A stretch of DNA of 64,000 nt from Streptomyces sp. yr375 (GTDB lineage Bacteria > Actinomycetota > Actinomycetes > Streptomycetales > Streptomycetaceae), in assembly GCF_900110755.1 (NCBI RefSeq), contig NZ_FOFF01000004.1, positions 186,001-250,000 on the forward strand, given 5' to 3'. The stretch's first letter is position 1. Every line of letters starts with the position of its first letter. The translations under genes and the position numbers were made by a program. The notes under the pieces are model-generated. The model ran no database searches. It was not told the DNA's origin and worked only from the letters and a program-made list of their open reading frames with translations. Of this stretch, positions 7,566 to 35,329 are shown piece by piece.

Positions 7566-9512
7566 CTACGACACCCTCACCCACCGAGCCTCGCTGGGCA
7601 CGCCCCGCCCGTCATCCGCGAACACCATGTACCACCCGGACGGAACCAGGTTCCGATTACCAGGCACGGTCACCGTCACCTTGTCTCCCGCCACCCGGAA
7701 TCCCAACGCCACCGACCGCTGATCCACATCGGTGACATGCGTCGACGCGCTGGGCCGTATCAGCCGCACCTTCCGGATACGCGCCGCGTCCTTGGAAACA
7801 AAGGTCCCCGAAGCCCCCCGGGCGATACTCCTCGGCCCCCCGGAAAGATCGGGCCGCTCCCCCCGATAGAGATAGGGCGGCGAATAGACCTCGATCCGCT
7901 GCTCGAACTTCCCCGGCTTCGTGTTCGCCGCGTCCCCGTACAGCGAGTCGGAACCGAAGAACATCACCCGCCCGTCGGGCAACAGCAGTGACCCGGAATG
8001 GTAGTTCCTGCCCACCAGCGGATCGGCGACCCGCTCGAAGGAATTACGCTCCGGATGATAAAGACGGGCCTGCCGGATATTGGAGTCCCCGCGCCCCCGA
8101 TAGTCCTCCGAGCCGCCCGACACCAGCACACTGTCGTCGGGCAGTACGGAGACCTGCGGATACCGTGTCCCCTTCGCCAGCGAGGGGCCGTTCACGAAAC
8201 GCGGGCTCTCGTCGAGCAGGTCCACGAGCCGCGTCCGCGCACTGGACCGTGGCGACTCGCCGACGCCCCCACCCCCGACGACCATGTACCGCTCGTCCTG
8301 CGCGGGCGGCAGCAGCACGGTCGCCGAGGTCTCCATCAGGTCCGGATCGCTCAGACCCGGCAGCTTGGTGAACCCGTTGCCGGCCACGTCCCAGATCCCG
8401 GGATCGCGCCCCACGTCCGCCGGCCCGTACCCCGCATTGGACCCGGAGTAGAAAATCTTCCCGTCCTGCGTCAGAAACAGCGCGGGATACGTGGGAAACT
8501 GCCGTGTCTTCTTCGTGTACGTCCATTTCCGGGTCGCCGGATCGAACACCTCGTTCTTCCCCGGCACCAACTGCCCGATGTCGTCCAGTCCCGAGACGCT
8601 GAGGATCTTCCCGTCGCCCAAGGTGGTCAGCGTCGGATACCAGCGGGCCTCGTTCATCGGATCGACCTTGATGTACTTCTCGGCGACCGGATCGAATTCG
8701 TACGCGTCCCGGATCCCCTGGAAGTCCTTCTTGTCGAGGGCGAGTTTCTGCGCAATACCGTACGTATTGCGCCCGTCGACGCCGTTCAGCCCCCCGATCC
8801 GGTAATTGTCCTGCGTACCGGTCTCGTATCTCGTCCCCGATTTCTGCGCCTCGACGTAGATACGGCCCAGCCCCGGATCGTTGCGCAGGAACTTCCCGGT
8901 CTTCTTGTCGAACACCTTCGTCGCGCGCGGCACGAGCACCGGGTCCTTCGACACGAACGTCTTCCGGTTCTCGCGCCCGGTGAACCTCGTGCCCGCCGGC
9001 AGCGTGATCGGCCGGTCCGGGTTCTCGTTGTGGACGATCATCAGCCCGCCGGCCTTGGTGACGTCGCCCTTCAGTTTCTCGTACCGCTTGGTGCCGCCCG
9101 CGATGAGGACGGAGCCGTCCGCGAGCTGGGTGTGGCCGGTGCAGAACAGGTCGTTGGGCGTCGGCACCTTCTTGATCGTGCCCCGCGCCGGGTCCCAGAT
9201 CCGGGTGTCGAACCTCTTCGCGTCGAAGTTGTCCTGGTTGTTGCCCGAGCCCGCGACCAGCAGCACCTTCCCGGTGTGCAGGAGCACCGCGTGGATGGTG
9301 TCCTGGCGGTACTCCTTGGGGAACTCGACGATCTGCCAGTGCCCTTCGGCCGCCTTGTACTCGGGCCGGTTGATCGCGTACTGGTGGTAACTCTCCGTCC
9401 CGAAGCGGTAGAGCCAGGGCCCGTTCATCCCGGCCAGCACGGCGACGACCGCCGTGGTGATCGCGAACCTGCGGGCCCGCCGACGGGCGAACCGCCCGAC
9501 CTCGTCCGTCAT
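7566..9512 (-). CDS. glxA: Galactose oxidase-like copper radical oxidase GlxA
   Basis: The 648-residue product has an N-terminal membrane anchor (residues 15-32, preceded by an Arg-rich cytoplasmic end), a seven-bladed Kelch-type propeller and a C-terminal DUF1929 domain. Candidate cofactor residues are Cys124 in DLFCTGH for the Tyr-Cys crosslink, the Tyr-His pair in GRNYHSGSLLLPDGR and a His in STHVTD. GlxA of S. lividans is a mononuclear copper oxidase needed with CslA for the polar glycan and for aerial development. The ATG overlaps the cslA stop by four bases (ATGA), which indicates translational coupling. Confidence 0.92.
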   Translation of the reverse strand: MTDEVGRFARRRARRFAITTAVVAVLAGMNGPWLYRFGTESYHQYAINRPEYKAAEGHWQIVEFPKEYRQDTIHAVLLHTGKVLLVAGSGNNQDNFDAKRFDTRIWDPARGTIKKVPTPNDLFCTGHTQLADGSVLIAGGTKRYEKLKGDVTKAGGLMIVHNENPDRPITLPAGTRFTGRENRKTFVSKDPVLVPRATKVFDKKTGKFLRNDPGLGRIYVEAQKSGTRYETGTQDNYRIGGLNGVDGRNTYGIAQKLALDKKDFQGIRDAYEFDPVAEKYIKVDPMNEARWYPTLTTLGDGKILSVSGLDDIGQLVPGKNEVFDPATRKWTYTKKTRQFPTYPALFLTQDGKIFYSGSNAGYGPADVGRDPGIWDVAGNGFTKLPGLSDPDLMETSATVLLPPAQDERYMVVGGGGVGESPRSSARTRLVDLLDESPRFVNGPSLAKGTRYPQVSVLPDDSVLVSGGSEDYRGRGDSNIRQARLYHPERNSFERVADPLVGRNYHSGSLLLPDGRVMFFGSDSLYGDAANTKPGKFEQRIEVYSPPYLYRGERPDLSGGPRSIARGASGTFVSKDAARIRKVRLIRPSASTHVTDVDQRSVALGFRVAGDKVTVTVPGNRNLVPSGWYMVFADDGRGVPSEARWVRVS

Positions 9513-11392
9513 CCCTCACGTCCCCCCGCCCGTCCGACGGGCAGCCCCACCGGCACCCGCCCCCCTGCCGTGCCCGCCGCTCCCGCCGCACCCGGCTTCC
9601 GGGGTTCGCTCGACGGCCCGCACTCCCGCTCCCGCTCCCGCTCCCGCTTCCGCTCCTGCTCCCGCTCCTGCTCCCGCCGCCCGGCCGCCTCCCGCGCCAC
9701 GACCCGCCACGCCACGATCGGCGAGGCCGTGACCAGCAGCGCGAACGACGCCCAGACGATCATCGCGGGATGGGCGTGCCCGAACACGAACCCGGCGACG
9801 ATCGACGCGGCGAAGACCAGCACGAAGAACAGATGGATCCGGAACGTCCCGAACAGCGTGTCCGGGCTGGCGGAGTCCCCCTTCGGCGTCACCACGAACC
9901 GGCTCTTGCGCCGCAGTACGGCGTCCATGAGCGAGCGGGCGTACACCGGCGCCGACAGCGCGGACATGACCATGCCCGCGATCCCGCCCGACCCCTCCGG
10001 CTCGTGCGGGGAGACGTTGTGCCGCCGGTTCCACAGGTACAGGCCGATCTGCAGCGCCGAGGCGTTGCCGTACAGCATCAGCCACACCGCCGGGTCGATG
10101 TTCACGCCCGAGGCGCCCAGCCCCAGGAACAGCGCGCAACTCAGCGCCGCCAGAATCCAGTTGAGGGCCGACATGGGGTAGAAGACGATCATCAGCGTGT
10201 AGTTGAGAAGCTTGCCCGGCGGCATGCTGTAGAAGCCCTTCCAGTACTGCTTGAGGATCGTCTCGTACGTCCCCCGGGACCAGCGCAGTTGCTGTGTGAA
10301 GAAGTCCGTCCAGGCGGCCGGCCCCTCACCGACCGCGAGCACGTCCGGGGTGTAGACCGACCGCCACTTGCGTCCCGTGGCCGGATTGCGCGCACGGTGC
10401 ATCTCGAATCCGGTGGCCATGTCCTCGGTGATCGAGTCGTACAGCCCGCCGATCTGCCGGAGCGCGCTGATCCGTACGGCGTTGGAGGTGCCGACGAACA
10501 TCGGCGCGCCGTAGCGGTTGCCGGCCCGCTGGATCAGGGCGTGGAACAGGAACTGCTGCGACTCGGCGGCCTTGGTGACGAACGTGTCGTAATTCCCGTA
10601 CACCTGCGGGCCGATGACGAAGCCGATGTCCGGGTCGCGGAAGTAACCCAGCATCCGTTCCAGGTAGTTGGGCAGCGGTACGTGGTCGGTGTCGACGGAG
10701 GCGAAGTAGTCGTAGGCGTCGCCGTGGGCCTCCAGCCAGGCGTTGTAGTTGCCGTGTTTGGTCTTCGCGCGGTGCGGGCCCGACGGCCGGTTCCAGCGCT
10801 CGACGCCCTTGCGGCTGAAGTGGTGCACGCCCAGGCGCGCGCAGACCTGCTTCACCTCCGGGTCGTCCCCCTCGTCGAGCAGCCAGACGTGCAGCAGACC
10901 CTGGTGGCGCAGCCGGACGGCCGCCTGAAGGGTCTTCGTCACCATCTCCAGGGGCTCCTTGCCGGGCACGAAGGAGGTGAGGAAGGCGACGCGGGTGCCG
11001 GTCTCGGGCACCACCGGGACCGGGTCGCGGGCGACCAGGGTGGCGTGCGCGTTCGACAGCACGTTCAGACAGCGGAAGAACTCGATCAGCCCGATCGACA
11101 CCAGCATCACGATGTCGAGGGCCGGCAGAAAGTCGTGGGCGGGATGGTCGCGCTCGGTCCAGTGCGCCGGCCTCAGCAGCCACACCAGCAGCACCACCGA
11201 CAGCAGCGGCGCCGCACAGAGCATCAGCGAGGCCCGGATCCGATGCGGCTCCCGCGCCAGCAGCGAACGGTAACGGACGGTGTACGGTCTGCCCGGCTCC
11301 GGCTGGGTGAGGGGTCCCGCCAGCCGGCTGTAGTGCTCGTAGTCGTACCTCGGAAGAGACCCTGAACCATCAGCCCACACGCGGAGAACCAC
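9509..11392 (-). CDS. cslA: Cellulose synthase-like glycosyltransferase CslA (GT2)
   Basis: The integral membrane GT2 enzyme polymerises a beta-glycan at hyphal tips in Streptomyces. The cytosolic catalytic domain shows LLDEGDD, SVDTDH (DXD), SITEDMATG (TED) and QQLRWSRGT (QXXRW), flanked by two N-terminal and several C-terminal membrane helices. The C-terminus ends in a charged REQEREQERKRERERERE tail encoded by near-hexamer repeats. I chose the GTG at 11392, eight bases after a GGGGG run; longer in-frame starts at 11428 and 11473 lack a ribosome-binding site, and the extension would contain a TTA codon. It overlaps glxA by four bases. Confidence 0.92.
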   Translation of the reverse strand: MVLRVWADGSGSLPRYDYEHYSRLAGPLTQPEPGRPYTVRYRSLLAREPHRIRASLMLCAAPLLSVVLLVWLLRPAHWTERDHPAHDFLPALDIVMLVSIGLIEFFRCLNVLSNAHATLVARDPVPVVPETGTRVAFLTSFVPGKEPLEMVTKTLQAAVRLRHQGLLHVWLLDEGDDPEVKQVCARLGVHHFSRKGVERWNRPSGPHRAKTKHGNYNAWLEAHGDAYDYFASVDTDHVPLPNYLERMLGYFRDPDIGFVIGPQVYGNYDTFVTKAAESQQFLFHALIQRAGNRYGAPMFVGTSNAVRISALRQIGGLYDSITEDMATGFEMHRARNPATGRKWRSVYTPDVLAVGEGPAAWTDFFTQQLRWSRGTYETILKQYWKGFYSMPPGKLLNYTLMIVFYPMSALNWILAALSCALFLGLGASGVNIDPAVWLMLYGNASALQIGLYLWNRRHNVSPHEPEGSGGIAGMVMSALSAPVYARSLMDAVLRRKSRFVVTPKGDSASPDTLFGTFRIHLFFVLVFAASIVAGFVFGHAHPAMIVWASFALLVTASPIVAWRVVAREAAGRREQEREQERKRERERERECGPSSEPRKPGAAGAAGTAGGRVPVGLPVGRAGGREG

Positions 11393-11597
11393 GTGTAATT
11401 CCCCCCAACTGCCGCGTATCCGCAGCATCTTGAGGACTAGGGTTCTATGGGGATCAGCTTGATCGCAAGACACGAAACGCGCTGTTTACCGGTCATACGG
11501 GCGCATTGTGGCGTATGTGGGAGTGTTGTGGTTTTGGTGGAACCGATGTGCGAAATCGCACGCAGATACGAAACTCGGATGCGGGCGCGGATACGAA

Positions 11598-11629: not shown

Positions 11630-11636
11630 GTGTCTG

Positions 11637-11710
11637 TGCGCCGCCAGGGACTCGAACCCCGGACCCGCTGATTAAGAGTCAGCTGCTCTAACCAACTGAG
11701 CTAGCGGCGC
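11637..11710 (-). tRNA. tRNA-Lys (CTT), copy 1
   Basis: The 74-nt cloverleaf has acceptor stem GCGCCGC/GCGGCGC, anticodon stem GCTGA/TCAGC and loop CTCTTAA with anticodon CTT, and T-loop TTCGAGT. CCA is not encoded. The sequence is identical to the copies at 16904 and 28912. Confidence 0.97.
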
Positions 11711-16898: not shown

Positions 16899-16903
16899 CA
16901 CTG

Positions 16904-16977
16904 TGCGCCGCCAGGGACTCGAACCCCGGACCCGCTGATTAAGAGTCAGCTGCTCTAACCAACTGAGCTAGCGGCGC
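16904..16977 (-). tRNA. tRNA-Lys (CTT), copy 2
   Basis: The sequence is identical over 74 nt to the copy at 11637: anticodon CTT in loop CTCTTAA, no encoded CCA. Confidence 0.97.
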
Positions 16978-28903: not shown

Positions 28904-28911
28904 GCCGTCTG

Positions 28912-28985
28912 TGCGCCGCCAGGGACTCGAACCCCGGACCCGCTGATTAAGAGTCAGCTGCTCTAACCAACTGAGCTAGCGGCGC
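28912..28985 (-). tRNA. tRNA-Lys (CTT), copy 3
   Basis: The sequence is identical over 74 nt to the copies at 11637 and 16904. Its first 10 bases overlap the 3' end of an upstream protein gene on the same strand. Confidence 0.97.
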
Positions 28986-30049: not shown

Positions 30050-30174
30050 ATCTCGGCCTCCTCATACGGTTCGGATGCGGACCACCCCCCATTCTCCCCC
30101 GCCAACGCAAGAGACCAGCGGCCCGCACCTTCAAGGCTCCCGGGCCTCCCGATGTTCCCGGCACATCAGGGCCG

Positions 30175-30402
30175 CCAGGTCACCCGGTGTTCCGCAAGAT
30201 GCGCCAGCACCGCGTGGTTCGCTTCCCAGCCGTCCGGGGCTGTGTTCATCGGCCGCCTTCGGCGGCGTGCCGGACTCCGTCCGGCGGGAGGTGGTGTCGT
30301 GGTCGGTGTGCTTTGCCGGGCGGTGAGTCTCACGGCTTCCAGGTCACCCGGTGTTCCGCAAGATGCGCAAGCACCGCGTGATTGGCCTCCCAGCCGTCCG
30401 GG
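30175..30402. repeat. 64-bp direct repeat copying the 3' end of the helicase gene
   Basis: 30175-30238 and 30339-30402 match with about five substitutions and no indel at an offset of 164 bp. The second copy is the last coding part of the helicase gene (GWEANHAVLAHLAEHRVTWKP); the first lies downstream and encodes the same tail with one change (WRP). Two hairpins lie between the copies. Confidence 0.85.
30253..30285 (-). terminator. Two adjacent hairpins after the helicase gene
   Basis: GCCGCC-TTC-GGCGGC (about 30253-30267) and GCCGGAC-TCC-GTCCGGC (30269-30285) lie 45-77 bp past the helicase stop. They are likely the terminator of the nuclease-helicase operon. Confidence 0.55.
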
Positions 30403-31697
30403 AATTTGACGACGGTGCCGAGCTGGATCGGTTCTGTTGAGGGGTAGTCGTCCAGGAGGTCGGTGACGCCTGCGCGGCAGACGACCACGCAGGCGTGGCG
30501 GTGGCGGGAGGCCAGGACGCACAGGCGGCCCGTTTCCAGGTGGAAGGCGGTGGCGTCGGGGCGGCCGGAGAGCGGGTGCAGGATCACCGTGACGTCGAAC
30601 TCCATGCCCTGGAGGCGGTTCGCCGTGTCCACGGTGACGTCTGTGACGCCCAGTTCCGCCAGCGCCGCTCGGACCGCCGCCGCCTGGTCGCGGTGGGCCG
30701 TGCCGACGGCGATCCGGTCGGGGGTCAGGGGGGTCGGGGCCGGGGAGCGCTCCGACACCGCCTCGCCGGCTCGGTCCAGCAGGCGTCGGACGACCGTCGC
30801 GACCGCCCGTACCGCCTCCGGGTCGGTGCGCGGGGTGTGCCGGGCGGGCAGCTCCAGCAGGCCCCAGCCCGACTCCGCGGCCTCGTCGATCACCCGGTCG
30901 GCGCCCGAGCCGTCCGAGGCCACGGCGAAGGACAGCCGGCGGTCGCCGTGCCCGGTGCCGCTGCGGAACGGCGTGAAGGGGTAGAAGGCGTCCGAGACCA
31001 GGGGCGCGGCCGACGCCGGGAGCCGCCAGGACACCGGCAGCCGGTGCTGCGGCAGTTCCGGGTTGTGCGCGAGGAGCGTGCTCACCGCCGAGGCCGACGG
31101 GTCGTACGACAGGCCCGCCCACTGCTCGCCGCCCACGATCGAGAACGGGTCGAGCTGCCCCGGGTCGCCCACGAACAGCGCCCGCTCGAACAGCCCGGCC
31201 ACGGCCAGCAGCCCGTCCGACCGCATCTGGTAGGCCTCGTCCACGATCGCGTGCCGCCACGGCTCGTCGACCTTCACGTGCGCCCACTTGGCGGCGGTGG
31301 AGATCACCACCGGCAGCCCTGCCAGCTCCGCCGCCTTCGCCGACTTCCGGACGTTCGGCAGCTCGTCCAGCACCTTGTCGTACGGGTCGGCGTCGCTGCT
31401 GTGCAGCCGGCCCACCGGCAGCTCGGGGTTCTTCTCGGCGAGCCGTACGACCAGGTCGTCGACCTGTGCGTTGGTCTGCGCGACGACCATCAACGAGCGT
31501 CCCGCGTCGGCCAGTTCAAGCGCCGCGCGGACGACGAGCGTGGACTTCCCGGCGCCCGGCGGGGAGTCGACGACCACCCCGCGCGCGGTGCCGTGCAGCG
31601 TGTCGCGCAGGATCGCGTCGGTGGCCCGGCCGGCGGCGGCACCGGGATCGAACACGGCCGTGCCGGTCTGGGCGGTCTGGGTGGCCTCGGCGGTCAC
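30330..31697 (-). CDS. SF1B (Upf1/DNA2-like) helicase/ATPase
   Basis: The 455-residue P-loop NTPase has Walker A DSPPGAGKSTL, motif Ia VVAQTNAQVDDL, Walker B HAIVDEAYQM, motif III LFVGDPGQLDPF, motif IV SWRLPAS, motif V VDTANRLQGMEFDVTVI and motif VI LCVLASRHRHACVVV. This order is that of SF1B helicases of the Upf1/DNA2/RecD side. It is the third gene of a coupled cassette: GTGA overlaps the previous stop, with AGGAGG seven bases upstream. With a RecB/Cas4-like nuclease in the same operon, a role in DNA processing, repair or defence is likely but unproven. The C-terminal tail is duplicated downstream. Confidence 0.8.
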   Translation of the reverse strand: MTAEATQTAQTGTAVFDPGAAAGRATDAILRDTLHGTARGVVVDSPPGAGKSTLVVRAALELADAGRSLMVVAQTNAQVDDLVVRLAEKNPELPVGRLHSSDADPYDKVLDELPNVRKSAKAAELAGLPVVISTAAKWAHVKVDEPWRHAIVDEAYQMRSDGLLAVAGLFERALFVGDPGQLDPFSIVGGEQWAGLSYDPSASAVSTLLAHNPELPQHRLPVSWRLPASAAPLVSDAFYPFTPFRSGTGHGDRRLSFAVASDGSGADRVIDEAAESGWGLLELPARHTPRTDPEAVRAVATVVRRLLDRAGEAVSERSPAPTPLTPDRIAVGTAHRDQAAAVRAALAELGVTDVTVDTANRLQGMEFDVTVILHPLSGRPDATAFHLETGRLCVLASRHRHACVVVCRAGVTDLLDDYPSTEPIQLGTVVKFPDGWEANHAVLAHLAEHRVTWKP

Positions 31698-33310
31698 AGG
31701 GTGTCCTCCTGGGTCACGGAGTCGGGGGCTTCGGGCGTCTGCTCGCCGGGCGGTCCGCCGTGCGTCCACGGCGTGTCCTCCGGGTCGGGCAGCTTCGCGC
31801 CGCCGCGCTGTTCGTGTTCGAAGAGCGTGAAGCAGAGCCGGTCGCCCTTCTCGGGCACGGACCCCGCCTCGGGCTCCTTGCCGCGGCCCATCTTGTCGAC
31901 GATCCGCAGCACCAGCAGCCCTTCACCCCCATCGCCCTCTTCGCCCGCCTCGTCGTCCCAGCGCACGAACTCCGCCGCCTGCGGCTTCCCGCCCAGCGAG
32001 CGGAACACCCGCGCCCGCTCGCCGAGCCGCGGCCGGTCGTCCGTCCGCACGGTGACCAGCGGGCGCGGGCTCGGCCGCTTGCCCTCGCTGTACGTCATCA
32101 CGACGTCGACGACCTCCCCCACGAACGCCTCCCCGGCCAGCCGCCGCCCCGCCATCACCAGCGGATCGTCCAGCGCCTCCTGGGCCTCCAGTCGGGCCTG
32201 TTCGCGCTCGCGCGTGGCGAGCTTGTTGGCGGCGGTCACCGCGTCGTCCCGGCGCGGCTGCGGGGGCTCGCCGGCGACGACCCGGTCGCGGTGGCCGGTG
32301 AACGACCAGCGGTCGCGCGTCCACCGCTCCTCGACATGCGCGCCCTCGGGCAGCGCCCGCAGCAGCTCCAGGCCGTCCCACACCTTCTCCCAGGTGGGGA
32401 GCGTACGGCTGCGCACCAGCTCGTGGATCTCCCGCTCGGCGGCGGTGAGCGCGCCCAGCCGGTCGTCGGCCTGCACGCCGTCCTCGGCGGCGGCCAGGGC
32501 GGTCCGCGCGCGGTCGTAGCGCTCGATGGCCGGGGCGAGCAGCTTGTTGTCGAACGCCGGGTCGGTCGCCGGACCGGCCGGCGGGCACTCCAACTGCCCC
32601 TGCGCGTCCCGCGCCAGCTCCGCCCGCAGCGCGGCCCGCGCCCCCGACTCGCCCGCCGGCGGGGCGAGCCAGGCCAGCAGCGCGCCCAGATGCTGGTCCT
32701 CCAGGCTGGACTGCCCGGTCGCCCAATGCCGGCCCAGCACCTCCGTCAGCGCCAGCAGCAGCGACGACCCCGGCACCCGCGACCGCTCCCCGAAATGCGT
32801 CAGCCACCGCCCGAGCAGCGGCACGCGCGGCGGCGCGGGATACGGCGTCTGCGGGTCCTGCTCCGCCGTCCGCCGAAAGCGCATGGAGCGCCCCAGGAGG
32901 CGTACGAAGTCGACGCCCGCGCGGCTCGGCACGATCAACTGGGGTGCGTCCGCGCACAGTTCGACTTCGACCTTGACGCGCTTGCCGGTCTCCGGGTCGC
33001 TCTCGCTGCGCTCGGCCGCCTCCACGGCGTCGGCGTAGCCGTCGATGTAGGGCAGGACGACGTCGGCCAGTTCGGCGAGGAACGCGAACCTGAGGTCGCG
33101 GTCGCGCGGCTGCGCCACGACCAGCAGCCGTGGCGCGTCCCGGTCGGTGCCGACCAGCGCGCCCAGCGGCGCGCCGGCCTCACCGGCGGTGGTCAGCGGC
33201 ACGAGGACCAGCGGCCGCGCGGAGAGGTGCCGGTGGCGGACGGTGGCGGTGGGCTGGGCGCGGCCGGTGGAGACGGCCTCCAGACGGGCGAGGGTGGCGA
33301 TCAGCGACAC
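31694..33310 (-). CDS. Protein of unknown function in the nuclease-helicase cassette
   Basis: The product of 538 residues has no signal peptide and no membrane helix. It is mostly helical in the middle (ALAAAEDGVQADDRLGALTAAEREIHELVRSRTLPTWEKVWDGLELLRAL) and basic-acidic mixed at the end, with a coiled-coil-like stretch (TAANKLATREREQARLEAQEALDD). The last third (VGEVVDVVMTYSEGKRPSPRPLVTVRTDDRPRLGERARVFRSLGGKPQAAEFVRWDD) looks like a small beta-barrel. No catalytic motif is recognised. The GTG start overlaps the nuclease stop by 10 bp and the stop overlaps the helicase GTG by four, so it is made in step with both, probably as an adaptor or structural partner. Confidence 0.7.
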   Translation of the reverse strand: MSLIATLARLEAVSTGRAQPTATVRHRHLSARPLVLVPLTTAGEAGAPLGALVGTDRDAPRLLVVAQPRDRDLRFAFLAELADVVLPYIDGYADAVEAAERSESDPETGKRVKVEVELCADAPQLIVPSRAGVDFVRLLGRSMRFRRTAEQDPQTPYPAPPRVPLLGRWLTHFGERSRVPGSSLLLALTEVLGRHWATGQSSLEDQHLGALLAWLAPPAGESGARAALRAELARDAQGQLECPPAGPATDPAFDNKLLAPAIERYDRARTALAAAEDGVQADDRLGALTAAEREIHELVRSRTLPTWEKVWDGLELLRALPEGAHVEERWTRDRWSFTGHRDRVVAGEPPQPRRDDAVTAANKLATREREQARLEAQEALDDPLVMAGRRLAGEAFVGEVVDVVMTYSEGKRPSPRPLVTVRTDDRPRLGERARVFRSLGGKPQAAEFVRWDDEAGEEGDGGEGLLVLRIVDKMGRGKEPEAGSVPEKGDRLCFTLFEHEQRGGAKLPDPEDTPWTHGGPPGEQTPEAPDSVTQEDTL

Positions 33311-34476
33311 ATCGCCTCCAGGGCTTCGGCACGCAGTCGCGCGGCCCTGCGCAGGGCGGCCACGGCCGGGTCCGCCGGGTCCCCGGCCTCGCCGTGCGCC
33401 GCCGCGAGGACGCCGTCCACGGTCGTCAGCCCGCCCAGTTCGGCGCGCACCGACCGGCCCAGCGAGGTGACCGCGCCGGCCGCGCGGGAGCGGTCGCGGC
33501 AGTGGAAGGCCAGCTCGCAGGCGGCCAGGCACTCGGGCGCGTACGTCGCCGGGACGGCCTCGACGGCGGCCGTGAGCTGCTCGGCGGGCAGTCCGGGGGA
33601 GAAGCAGGTGCCCTCGGGGAGGGCGTCGGCGATGTCCTGGATGCGGGTGAGGCGGGCCAGTTGGCGGCTGGTGACCGCGCGCTGCTTGCGTACGTCCACG
33701 GCGGAGGCGGTGGGCAGGTTGGAGAAGTCCTTGGGGCAGACCAGGAGCACCCGGTGGCGCACGCGCGGGGGAGGGTCGAGGCGGGCGGCGACCTGCTCGA
33801 GGGCCAGCACGTAGACGGCGGCCTGGCGGGCGGCCGCGCCGACCTTCGCCGGGTCCGCCGAACCGTCCAGCATCGGGAAGGACTTGATCTCCACGACCGT
33901 CCACCCGCCGTCCGGGTGGACCACCACCGCGTCGGGCTCCAGGAAGGCGGGGGAGCCCGCGACGTCGAGGGCGATCATCGGGTGGTCCAGGAGCGTCCAG
34001 GTGCCGCTCGCCGCGGTGGCCTCGCGCAGTGCCAGCGCCGTGCGCGCGGTGCGGCCCTCGGGGCCGATCGCCGACAGGTCGGGCACCGCCGCCCGGGTGG
34101 GCGGTTCGGCGCCCGGGTCCAGCCGCTCGTGCACCAGCCGCAGCAGCTCCGCGCCGCCGTCCGCCTTCACCTTCGCCTCGAACGCGTTGCCGCGCGTGAG
34201 GGCGAACTGCGACTGTCCGAACGCCGACGGCGAGCCCAGCGCACCGGCCAGCGCCGCTTTGTCCACCCCTGCGCCGTCGAGGATCGCGCGCCGCTTGCAG
34301 CCAGGGTTCGCGGCGAGCGCCGCGAGGGCGCGGGCGTCCAGCGCCTTGGCCGGTACGTCTGGCCCGCGCAGGTCAGCGAGCCGCTGCCGGAGCGCCGTCC
34401 CCCGCGTCCGAGGGAGAGGCGTCCGGCTCGGCTCCGGGCCGGGGCCGTGACTCGCGCTGCCGTGGAATTCGCTCAC
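33301..34476 (-). CDS. RecB/Cas4-like PD-(D/E)XK nuclease with four-cysteine pattern
   Basis: The nuclease core is visible as FLEPDAVVVHPDGGWTVVEIKSFPML (PD...EXK) followed by ARQAAVYVLALEQVA (QxxxY-type motif). One cysteine lies before the core (NPGCKRRAIL) and three after it (ECLAACELAFHCR), an arrangement like the iron-sulphur clasp of Cas4 and AddB, though the spacing C-x3-C-x5-C differs by one residue from the usual C-x2-C-x5-C. No cas1, cas2 or CRISPR array is present. The start is uncertain (GTG 34476, or GTG/TTG further upstream); every option overlaps the PAP2 gene by at least about 100 bp. First gene of the cassette. Confidence 0.75.
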   Translation of the reverse strand: MSEFHGSASHGPGPEPSRTPLPRTRGTALRQRLADLRGPDVPAKALDARALAALAANPGCKRRAILDGAGVDKAALAGALGSPSAFGQSQFALTRGNAFEAKVKADGGAELLRLVHERLDPGAEPPTRAAVPDLSAIGPEGRTARTALALREATAASGTWTLLDHPMIALDVAGSPAFLEPDAVVVHPDGGWTVVEIKSFPMLDGSADPAKVGAAARQAAVYVLALEQVAARLDPPPRVRHRVLLVCPKDFSNLPTASAVDVRKQRAVTSRQLARLTRIQDIADALPEGTCFSPGLPAEQLTAAVEAVPATYAPECLAACELAFHCRDRSRAAGAVTSLGRSVRAELGGLTTVDGVLAAAHGEAGDPADPAVAALRRAARLRAEALEAMCR

Positions 34477-35329
34477 CCGGGGAAGTCTGGCATCCGCCAC
34501 TGACAATCGGGTCCGATGTGCCGGGAGAGTCCGCCGGGAGCAGCGGGACCCGGGCCGTGAACCACACCCGCGCCCGGTCCGCGCCGCGCATCACCAGCGG
34601 GGTCAGCAGCAGCCCGACGCCCATCACGGCCGCGCCCGCGACGGCGTCGAGGAAGTAGTGGTTGGCGGTGCCCATCACCACGATCGTCGTGACCAGCGGG
34701 TAGCCGACGGCCGCCGTCCTCGCCAGTCGGCTGCCGCTGCCGTACCGCCACAGCATGACGCCGCACCACAGGGCCCAGCCGACGTGCAGGCTCGGCATCG
34801 CCGCGTACTGGTTGGTCATGCCCCCCATGCCGCGCGGTGCGCTCGCCTCGCCGCCCCACCAGCCGTACGAGCTGTACTGGGCCATCGTGTCCACGAAGCC
34901 GTGGCCCGCCGACAGCAGCCGGGGCGGGCAGGTCGGCAGCAGCGTGAAGCCTATGAGGCCCATGAACGTGGACGTCATCAGCCAGGTGCGGGCCGCCCGG
35001 TAGAGGTGGGAGCGGGACCGGAACAGCCAGACCAGGATCGCGGGTGTCACCAGGTAGTGCAGCGACGCGTACCAGAAGTCGGCCGGCACGCCGATCCACG
35101 CCTCGCTGCGGAACAGCCGGTTCAGCGGGTGTTCGGCGTTGATGTGCAGGAACTTCTCGACGCGCAGGATCGCCAGGCCGTGGTCGACGGCGGTCGTGAC
35201 ATCGCCCCGCGCGAGCAGCCGGCCCGCCGAGTAGCAGGCGTACACGAGCAGGATCAGGGGCAGCTCGGTCCACCAGCGCAGCCGTGTCCGCGGGACCGCC
35301 TCGGTGCCTGGTGTCTCGGTCTGCGGCAT
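34373..35329 (-). CDS. PAP2-family membrane phosphatase (Aur1/inositol-type)
   Basis: The 318-residue integral membrane protein has about six helices. PAP2 signature elements are visible: MPSLHVGWALW (PSXH) and ANHYFLDAVAGAAV (catalytic His and Asp). The order and the AMPSLH context match the phosphatidic acid phosphatase/Aur1-like subgroup that acts on lipid phosphates. The last about 70 residues are hydrophilic, rich in Pro, Arg and Ser, and their codons overlap the nuclease gene start by about 104 bp. The ATG follows GGGGGAGG. Substrate not readable. Confidence 0.83.
   Translation of the reverse strand: MPQTETPGTEAVPRTRLRWWTELPLILLVYACYSAGRLLARGDVTTAVDHGLAILRVEKFLHINAEHPLNRLFRSEAWIGVPADFWYASLHYLVTPAILVWLFRSRSHLYRAARTWLMTSTFMGLIGFTLLPTCPPRLLSAGHGFVDTMAQYSSYGWWGGEASAPRGMGGMTNQYAAMPSLHVGWALWCGVMLWRYGSGSRLARTAAVGYPLVTTIVVMGTANHYFLDAVAGAAVMGVGLLLTPLVMRGADRARVWFTARVPLLPADSPGTSDPIVSGGCQTSPGERIPRQRESRPRPGAEPDASPSDAGDGAPAAAR

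Follow-up and report, generated by a model that had tools for sequence, protein, structure and literature searches.

Three overlapping genes in a stretch of Streptomyces sp. yr375 DNA, encoding a nuclease (NUC), a middle protein (MID) and a helicase (HEL), form a real unit and probably specify a single DNA-end-processing helicase-nuclease, an enzyme of the DNA2/TM0106 type split over three polypeptides. The stretch, hereafter the window, comprises 64,000 nucleotides (contig NZ_FOFF01000004.1, positions 186,001 to 250,000) of a 9.07-Mb genome. The arrangement proposed in the initial annotation, three genes on the same strand with overlaps of 10 and 4 base pairs (bp), was confirmed in the window at the following positions:

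33301..34476, minus strand: NUC, PD-(D/E)XK nuclease subunit, 391 amino acids (aa), GTG start
31694..33310, minus strand: MID, middle subunit, 538 aa, without a sequence family
30330..31697, minus strand: HEL, helicase motor of the superfamily 1B (SF1B) UPF1/DNA2 type, 455 aa
33301..33310, minus strand: overlap of NUC and MID, 10 bp
31694..31697, minus strand: overlap of MID and HEL, 4 bp

The coupling of the genes, their co-occurrence, motifs and contexts are read directly from sequence. The overlaps recur: of 157 loci, 118 have a NUC/MID overlap of 10 bp and 21 one of 4 bp, and of 148 loci, 123 have a MID/HEL overlap of 4 bp. These counts are biased towards agreement because the script took the start nearest the query's own start. 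All three genes are present in 154 of the 158 loci of a first set fetched via a MID match; two of the incomplete loci (L044 and L073) end at a sequence edge and the other two (L136 and L139) come from family f39. Among 296 genomes of the class, MID was identified in 49, NUC in 48 and HEL (E ≤ 1e-30) in 48, with all three in the same 48 genomes and no genome holding only NUC or only HEL; the 49th MID match spans 71 residues at E 3e-5. Two f39 genomes have kept HEL even though it lies ~36 kb (G286) and 49 kb (G377) from NUC-MID. Because the same 48 genomes hold all three genes, including these two in which HEL is distant, the linked nuclease/unknown/helicase unit suspected from the window alone is upheld, and genes lying mostly apart, the pattern that would have spoken against it, were not found in the 296 genomes.

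A search with MID alone located it in 186 of 197 genomes of the order, including 178 of the 181 from the genus Streptomyces; the three genomes of the genus without it measure 4.8-6.0 Mb. This core copy has a conserved setting, with six neighbouring genes each present in 55-57 of 57 named full-flank loci. A spread beyond the class was rejected, as the 10 genomes matched by a MID profile among 246 sampled across the phylum all belong to this class. Named relatives (best 120 of 3874 and of 4094 matches) include Streptosporangium, Planomonospora, Nonomuraea, Micromonospora, Parafrankia and Pseudofrankia, and are annotated nearly throughout as hypothetical or uncharacterised, with a few as 'Secreted protein' or 'serine/threonine-protein kinase'. 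A mobile or phage origin was also rejected; no phage record matched MID and three plasmid records did. One of the latter, NZ_LT559118.1 (L161), is an 11.85-Mb Nonomuraea replicon filed as a plasmid and is presumably a chromosome. Literature searches, which did not reach most subscription papers, yielded no publication recognised as describing the set, which is a new arrangement of known parts that may have been described earlier.

HEL matched AAA_11 (6.3e-11) and AAA_12 (1.3e-7) over the Pfam cut-off and UvrD-helicase at E 0.075 only. An alignment-based search gave IGHMBP2, DNA2 and UPF1 as its nearest solved structures, in agreement with the SF1B Upf1/DNA2-like helicase initially annotated. 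Its invariant motifs follow one another in the order Walker A, DEAYQ, GDPGQLDP, SWRLP and later ones, the first two being located as follows:

31539..31562, minus strand: Walker A of HEL, PPGAGKST, residues 46-53
31227..31241, minus strand: motif II of HEL, DEAYQ, residues 153-157, invariant

HEL aligns with these structures only from shortly ahead of Walker A, its positions 34-42 corresponding to residue 203 in IGHMBP2, ~200 in the shorter chains of UPF1 and 642 in DNA2. In these three helicases the region before the aligned point includes the stalk and the 1B barrel, and the ~40 residues that precede Walker A in HEL are too few for such a barrel.

At the sequence level, MID has no domain or family in Pfam, NCBIfam, PADLOC or PDB sequence profiles, and its initial description as a protein without a recognised domain holds there. 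The description fails at the level of fold, where an AlphaFold2 model (mean predicted local distance difference test score of 87.5) points to two parts:

32171..33220, minus strand: residues 31-380 of MID, RNase H/3'-5' exonuclease-like domain, probably not catalytic
31817..32146, minus strand: residues 389-498 of MID, predicted 1B beta-barrel of a UPF1-like helicase

The best fold matches of modelled residues 389-498 are the barrels of Senataxin and Sen1, and the modelled RNase H/exonuclease-like domain, which appears to lack the catalytic D-x-E, is probably non-catalytic. Foldseek with MID returned nothing at E ≤ 0.001, its top rows being elongation factors Tu with poor superposition. An unrelated metabolic fold, which would have told against the cassette, was looked for in the predicted structure and none was seen. 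MID is instead predicted to supply the barrel missing from HEL, in keeping with the early emphasis on the middle protein as the key part.

NUC is predicted to adopt the fold of Cas4/Exo5/AddB-type nucleases. Alignment of 71 NUC rows bore out the one plus three cysteines noticed at first, and located the catalytic stretch, which differs in the beta copies described below:

34297..34299, minus strand: C60 of NUC, first predicted iron-sulphur (Fe-S) cysteine; C in 70 of 71 rows, the remaining row having an ambiguous letter
33499..33531, minus strand: C316-x3-C320-x5-C326 of NUC, predicted Fe-S cysteines; 71 of 71 rows
33883..33939, minus strand: catalytic stretch E180-x-D182 ... E196-x-K198 of NUC; kept in 62 of 63 non-beta rows and altered in 8 of 8 beta rows

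An NCBIfam search, including the TM0106 model TIGR03491, gave no match for NUC or MID. PDB sequence profiles with NUC gave nothing useful (two designed proteins and one weak match), and a profile comparison found HEL and NUC to be unrelated. No PADLOC model matches NUC or MID, and HEL has partial matches only, the best being MkoC at 3.5e-8. The true start of NUC may differ from the called one, since the first ~25 residues are unconserved, have low model confidence and overlap an upstream open reading frame (34373-35329).

The three proteins were compared with the single-chain TM0106 family (TIGR03491), which occurs in 25 of 98 class genomes (22 above the cut-off) and in none of the six Streptomyces genomes that the 98 include. 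Pfam scans of five TM0106 proteins located RNase_H_2 within residues 329-560 and AAA_11/AAA_12 within ~776-1187, after the region covered by TIGR03491, in all five. Profile comparison matched HEL to the helicase end at E 1.6e-33 and NUC to the nuclease end at E 1e-4 (probability 57), the latter with a score of 41 against ≤ 18 in five column shuffles. A link between MID and TM0106 at the sequence level was rejected, as the comparison gave nothing above shuffles. TIGR03491 has no match in the window genome, and membership in the family was rejected at the level of the family model, TM0106 being retained as the closest layout. Mutual exclusion of TM0106 and the three genes was not supported, as genome G226 has both.

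The last 73 bp of HEL (window 30330-30402) are repeated with 90% identity 164 bp downstream (30166-30238), where a second copy of the tail, PDGWEANHAVLAHLAEHRVTW, is encoded. Of 73 named loci with sufficient flank, 20 have tail-like repeats after HEL. Judged by eye, repeats from one genome often resemble each other more than they do those of other genomes, and they may reflect a recurrent small insertion or an att-like duplication. At L080 (10994-14824), HEL is separated from the following core gene by ~2 kb more than usual and the HEL tail differs, which suggests an insertion at the HEL 3' end.

Accessory copies of the set have different neighbours. A fourth gene of 281 aa with no family found (hyp281) precedes NUC in both plasmid copies. 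One of these (L159) is on a linear plasmid of 300 kb, ~13 kb from its end, and the other (L160) is on a record labelled circular, ~4 kb from where the record ends. The hyp281 gene is also present in loci of families f19 (Streptosporangiaceae by the names of matches, best 120 of 3874 and of 4094), f6 and f48, and was not found in the window genome. It marks 22 accessory places in 20 of 246 genomes of the genus, all 22 of which were examined. Strict linkage of hyp281 to the trio was rejected: genome G279 lacks the three genes but carries a distant relative (G279:C44:290883-291515, L186; 36% identity, E 8.6e-19), and in G039 and G210 there are two weak matches elsewhere. In type alpha (14 of the 22 places, 12 genomes), SbcD, a subunit of the DNA-end nuclease SbcCD, lies divergently upstream. 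In type beta (8 places, 8 genomes), the divergent gene encodes 541-546 aa and corresponds to PprPDDEXK of PADLOC, which the L145 protein matches at E 2.7e-104; it has its own cysteines and an intact active site (D, E-x-K).

In all, 18 alpha loci were compared, with both copies of two terminal-repeat pairs included: the 14 places, L147 (f48), L151 and the two plasmids. SbcC and SbcD, which were Pfam-checked for L159 only, are fragmentary in L160 and L240. Seven of the 18 loci carry Wadjet genes downstream of HEL on the same strand, of type I in L159, L160 and L239 and of type II in L147, L238, L240 and L241. These assignments derive from PADLOC calls for L159 (JetA, JetC, JetD) and L147 (JetA2, JetB2) and from similarity to them at the other loci, type II having been sought with JetA2 and JetB2 only. 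L239 and L240 have near-identical NUC, MID and HEL but different Wadjet types, as does L238 compared with L159 and L160, and the Wadjet genes have therefore been exchanged at that place. It would make sense for Wadjet to be partnered by an enzyme that removes the linear DNA it produces.

In genomes G800 and G731, each with a single-contig chromosome, an alpha cassette is found 24 kb from either end. Its two copies match at 100% identity over 19.9 and 19.8 kb, respectively, and thus belong to terminal inverted repeats. The cassette is 4.7 kb from the end in G767 and 0.52 Mb from it in G782, the fourth single-contig alpha genome, and the beta copies of the single-contig genomes G698 and G073 lie 2.9 and 1.4 Mb inside. 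Enrichment of Wadjet and Lamassu towards Streptomyces chromosome ends has been reported (PMC10482375). Since two alpha SbcC proteins match the PADLOC LmuB model, some Lamassu calls near chromosome ends might be this alpha cassette. Among other neighbours, an HmaA-like SNF2/DEAD helicase (L145 3477-7016; PADLOC, E 0, 1290.7 bits) lies directly beyond a beta HEL, and a 1085-aa open reading frame downstream of an alpha HEL (L245 15337-18594) has no Pfam or PADLOC match. Next to two accessory copies are helicases of the DEAD type that carry 'helicase associated' (HA) domains (L151 4672-7584 and L153 10910-13150) and are reminiscent of the telomere-linked helicases of Streptomyces.

Gene trees, built with one locus per terminal-repeat pair and 17 outside rows, returned the core and beta copies as the same clades for NUC, MID and HEL. 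Alpha is a single clade in the NUC tree, and the outside row L141 falls inside alpha for MID and HEL; the HEL tree is a quick version, and the tree software flags long branches (L144 beside beta). All eight beta NUC rows carry changed catalytic residues and retain all four cysteines, six having E196L and K198R and two having changes at E180, D182, K198 and Y222. The eight form one clade, and one or two events of active-site change, not eight, are therefore indicated. The whole active set is retained by every non-beta row except L144 (9613-10698), which has E196A and Q218E and beside which no second nuclease was recognised in two scanned neighbours (a DUF6119 gene and a BTAD/NB-ARC regulator). 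Because the beta active site is changed beside a second nuclease and the cysteine-bearing fold is kept, NUC seems to have a structural role in addition to an enzymatic one, and the eight altered copies offer a natural experiment on subunit roles.

The roles proposed here for the domains of NUC, MID and HEL are inferred from models. In the split enzyme, HEL would be the SF1B motor, made functional by the joining of its RecA domains with the MID barrel, which would supply the missing 1B barrel, and it would be expected to run 5'-3', the polarity of SF1B helicases. The RNase H-like half of MID, apparently non-catalytic, would bridge the motor to NUC, which would cut the strand delivered by the motor and be stabilised by the predicted Fe-S cluster. 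AdnAB is presented as the main helicase-nuclease of Streptomyces (PMC5869714), and the core set would thus be a second end- or fork-processing enzyme, acting in genome maintenance beside AdnAB. For the accessory copies the substrate would be foreign or broken DNA, handled together with SbcCD or PprPDDEXK. A bolder version, possible though on balance doubtful, is an actinomycete counterpart of MRN-DNA2: a three-subunit DNA2-like enzyme, whose motor would act as a helicase only once MID lends it the 1B barrel, would join SbcCD and the fourth protein in an end-resection machine that clears Wadjet-linearised DNA and polices chromosome ends, and its NUC could be retired to an Fe-S scaffold where PprPDDEXK, a separate nuclease, takes its place.

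Core repair and defence had both been suggested at the outset, and both have circumstantial backing in the gene contexts, from the near-universal core copy on one side and from SbcCD, Wadjet, PprPDDEXK and, once, HmaA on the other. A primarily defensive set that degrades invading DNA, with the core Streptomyces copy as a fixed anti-plasmid or anti-phage module, would account for the Wadjet genes in 7 of 18 alpha loci, whose two types have been swapped at one position, for a beta partner that is itself a PADLOC model and for the HmaA-like neighbour. We nevertheless regard it as unlikely, given a core copy in all but three genomes of the genus amid syntenic neighbours, a spread unlike the patchy distribution usual for defence genes, the lack of a PADLOC model for NUC or MID and the absence of MID from the phage records.

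It is less likely still that MID is only a DNA-binding or bridging factor that does not complete the helicase, its barrel resembling Senataxin and Sen1 through the coincidence of a common fold. The part that precedes Walker A in the solved relatives of HEL is missing from HEL and predicted to lie in MID; the MID/HEL overlap is kept in most loci, and the core and beta clades agree in all three gene trees. The same barrel matches could suggest that the set acts on RNA or RNA-DNA hybrids, like its relatives Senataxin, Sen1 and UPF1, and removes R-loops or degrades transcripts. This seems very improbable, since NUC belongs to a DNA-exonuclease class, the neighbours of the accessory copies are DNA-end and anti-plasmid genes, and DNA2 and IGHMBP2 are equally close to HEL.

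If the split-enzyme reading is correct, it reveals a core helicase-nuclease, unnamed in the family libraries searched, in Streptomyces, organisms with linear chromosomes from which double-strand breaks remove arms. It would also be a case of an SF1B helicase whose core is shared by two proteins, and of Mre11-Rad50 (SbcCD) paired in bacteria with a DNA2-like enzyme. The Wadjet neighbourhood raises the testable question of what disposes of Wadjet-cut plasmids.

Elsewhere in the window, three identical tRNA-Lys(CTT) genes with differing flanks lie on the minus strand (11636-11710, 16903-16977 and 28911-28985); the intervening genes that were scanned are of ordinary chromosomal kinds and include no integrase. 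About 20 kb from NUC/MID/HEL, a GlxA-type oxidase adjoins a cellulose-synthase-like glycosyltransferase (7566-11473), a pair that we take to be cslA-glxA of Streptomyces.

Finally, the set was compared with known systems. The likeness to AddAB proposed initially holds for the nuclease and not for the motor: AddAB, AdnAB and RecBCD have UvrD-type SF1A motors, fused to the nuclease, whereas HEL is a separate AAA_11/AAA_12 chain of the UPF1/DNA2 type, and membership in that group was rejected on this ground. NUC differs from Cas4 and Exo5 nucleases in travelling with MID and HEL, and no cas gene was present among the scanned flanking genes (two within 4 kb; no dedicated CRISPR search was made). 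SbcCD and Wadjet are no more than neighbours of alpha accessory copies, unrelated to NUC/MID/HEL and not beside the core copy, and PprPDDEXK, usually paired with PprDinG (a PADLOC name), here adjoins the three genes. UPF1-like SF1B helicases share with HEL the order of Walker A, DEAxQ and later motifs, but carry the 1B barrel before RecA1 in one chain, while HEL lacks it and MID is predicted to hold it. The closest layouts are DNA2 and TM0106. Eukaryotic DNA2 combines in one chain the nuclease and SF1B helicase that are separate genes here, and its PD-(D/E)XK nuclease has the one plus three cluster cysteines also found in NUC, where the iron cluster is predicted; sequence similarity to NUC is weak, and DNA2 is not known to have an RNase H-type domain. 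TM0106 is likewise a single chain, with an RNase_H_2 domain to which MID shows no Pfam match or profile similarity; the counterpart at that position is a predicted RNase H/exonuclease-like fold, so that MID would correspond to the TM0106 middle part by fold and position. TM0106 chains and the three genes would thus share the order of nuclease, RNase H-type domain and UPF1-like helicase, and the three genes are read as a TM0106-type enzyme divided near its domain joints.
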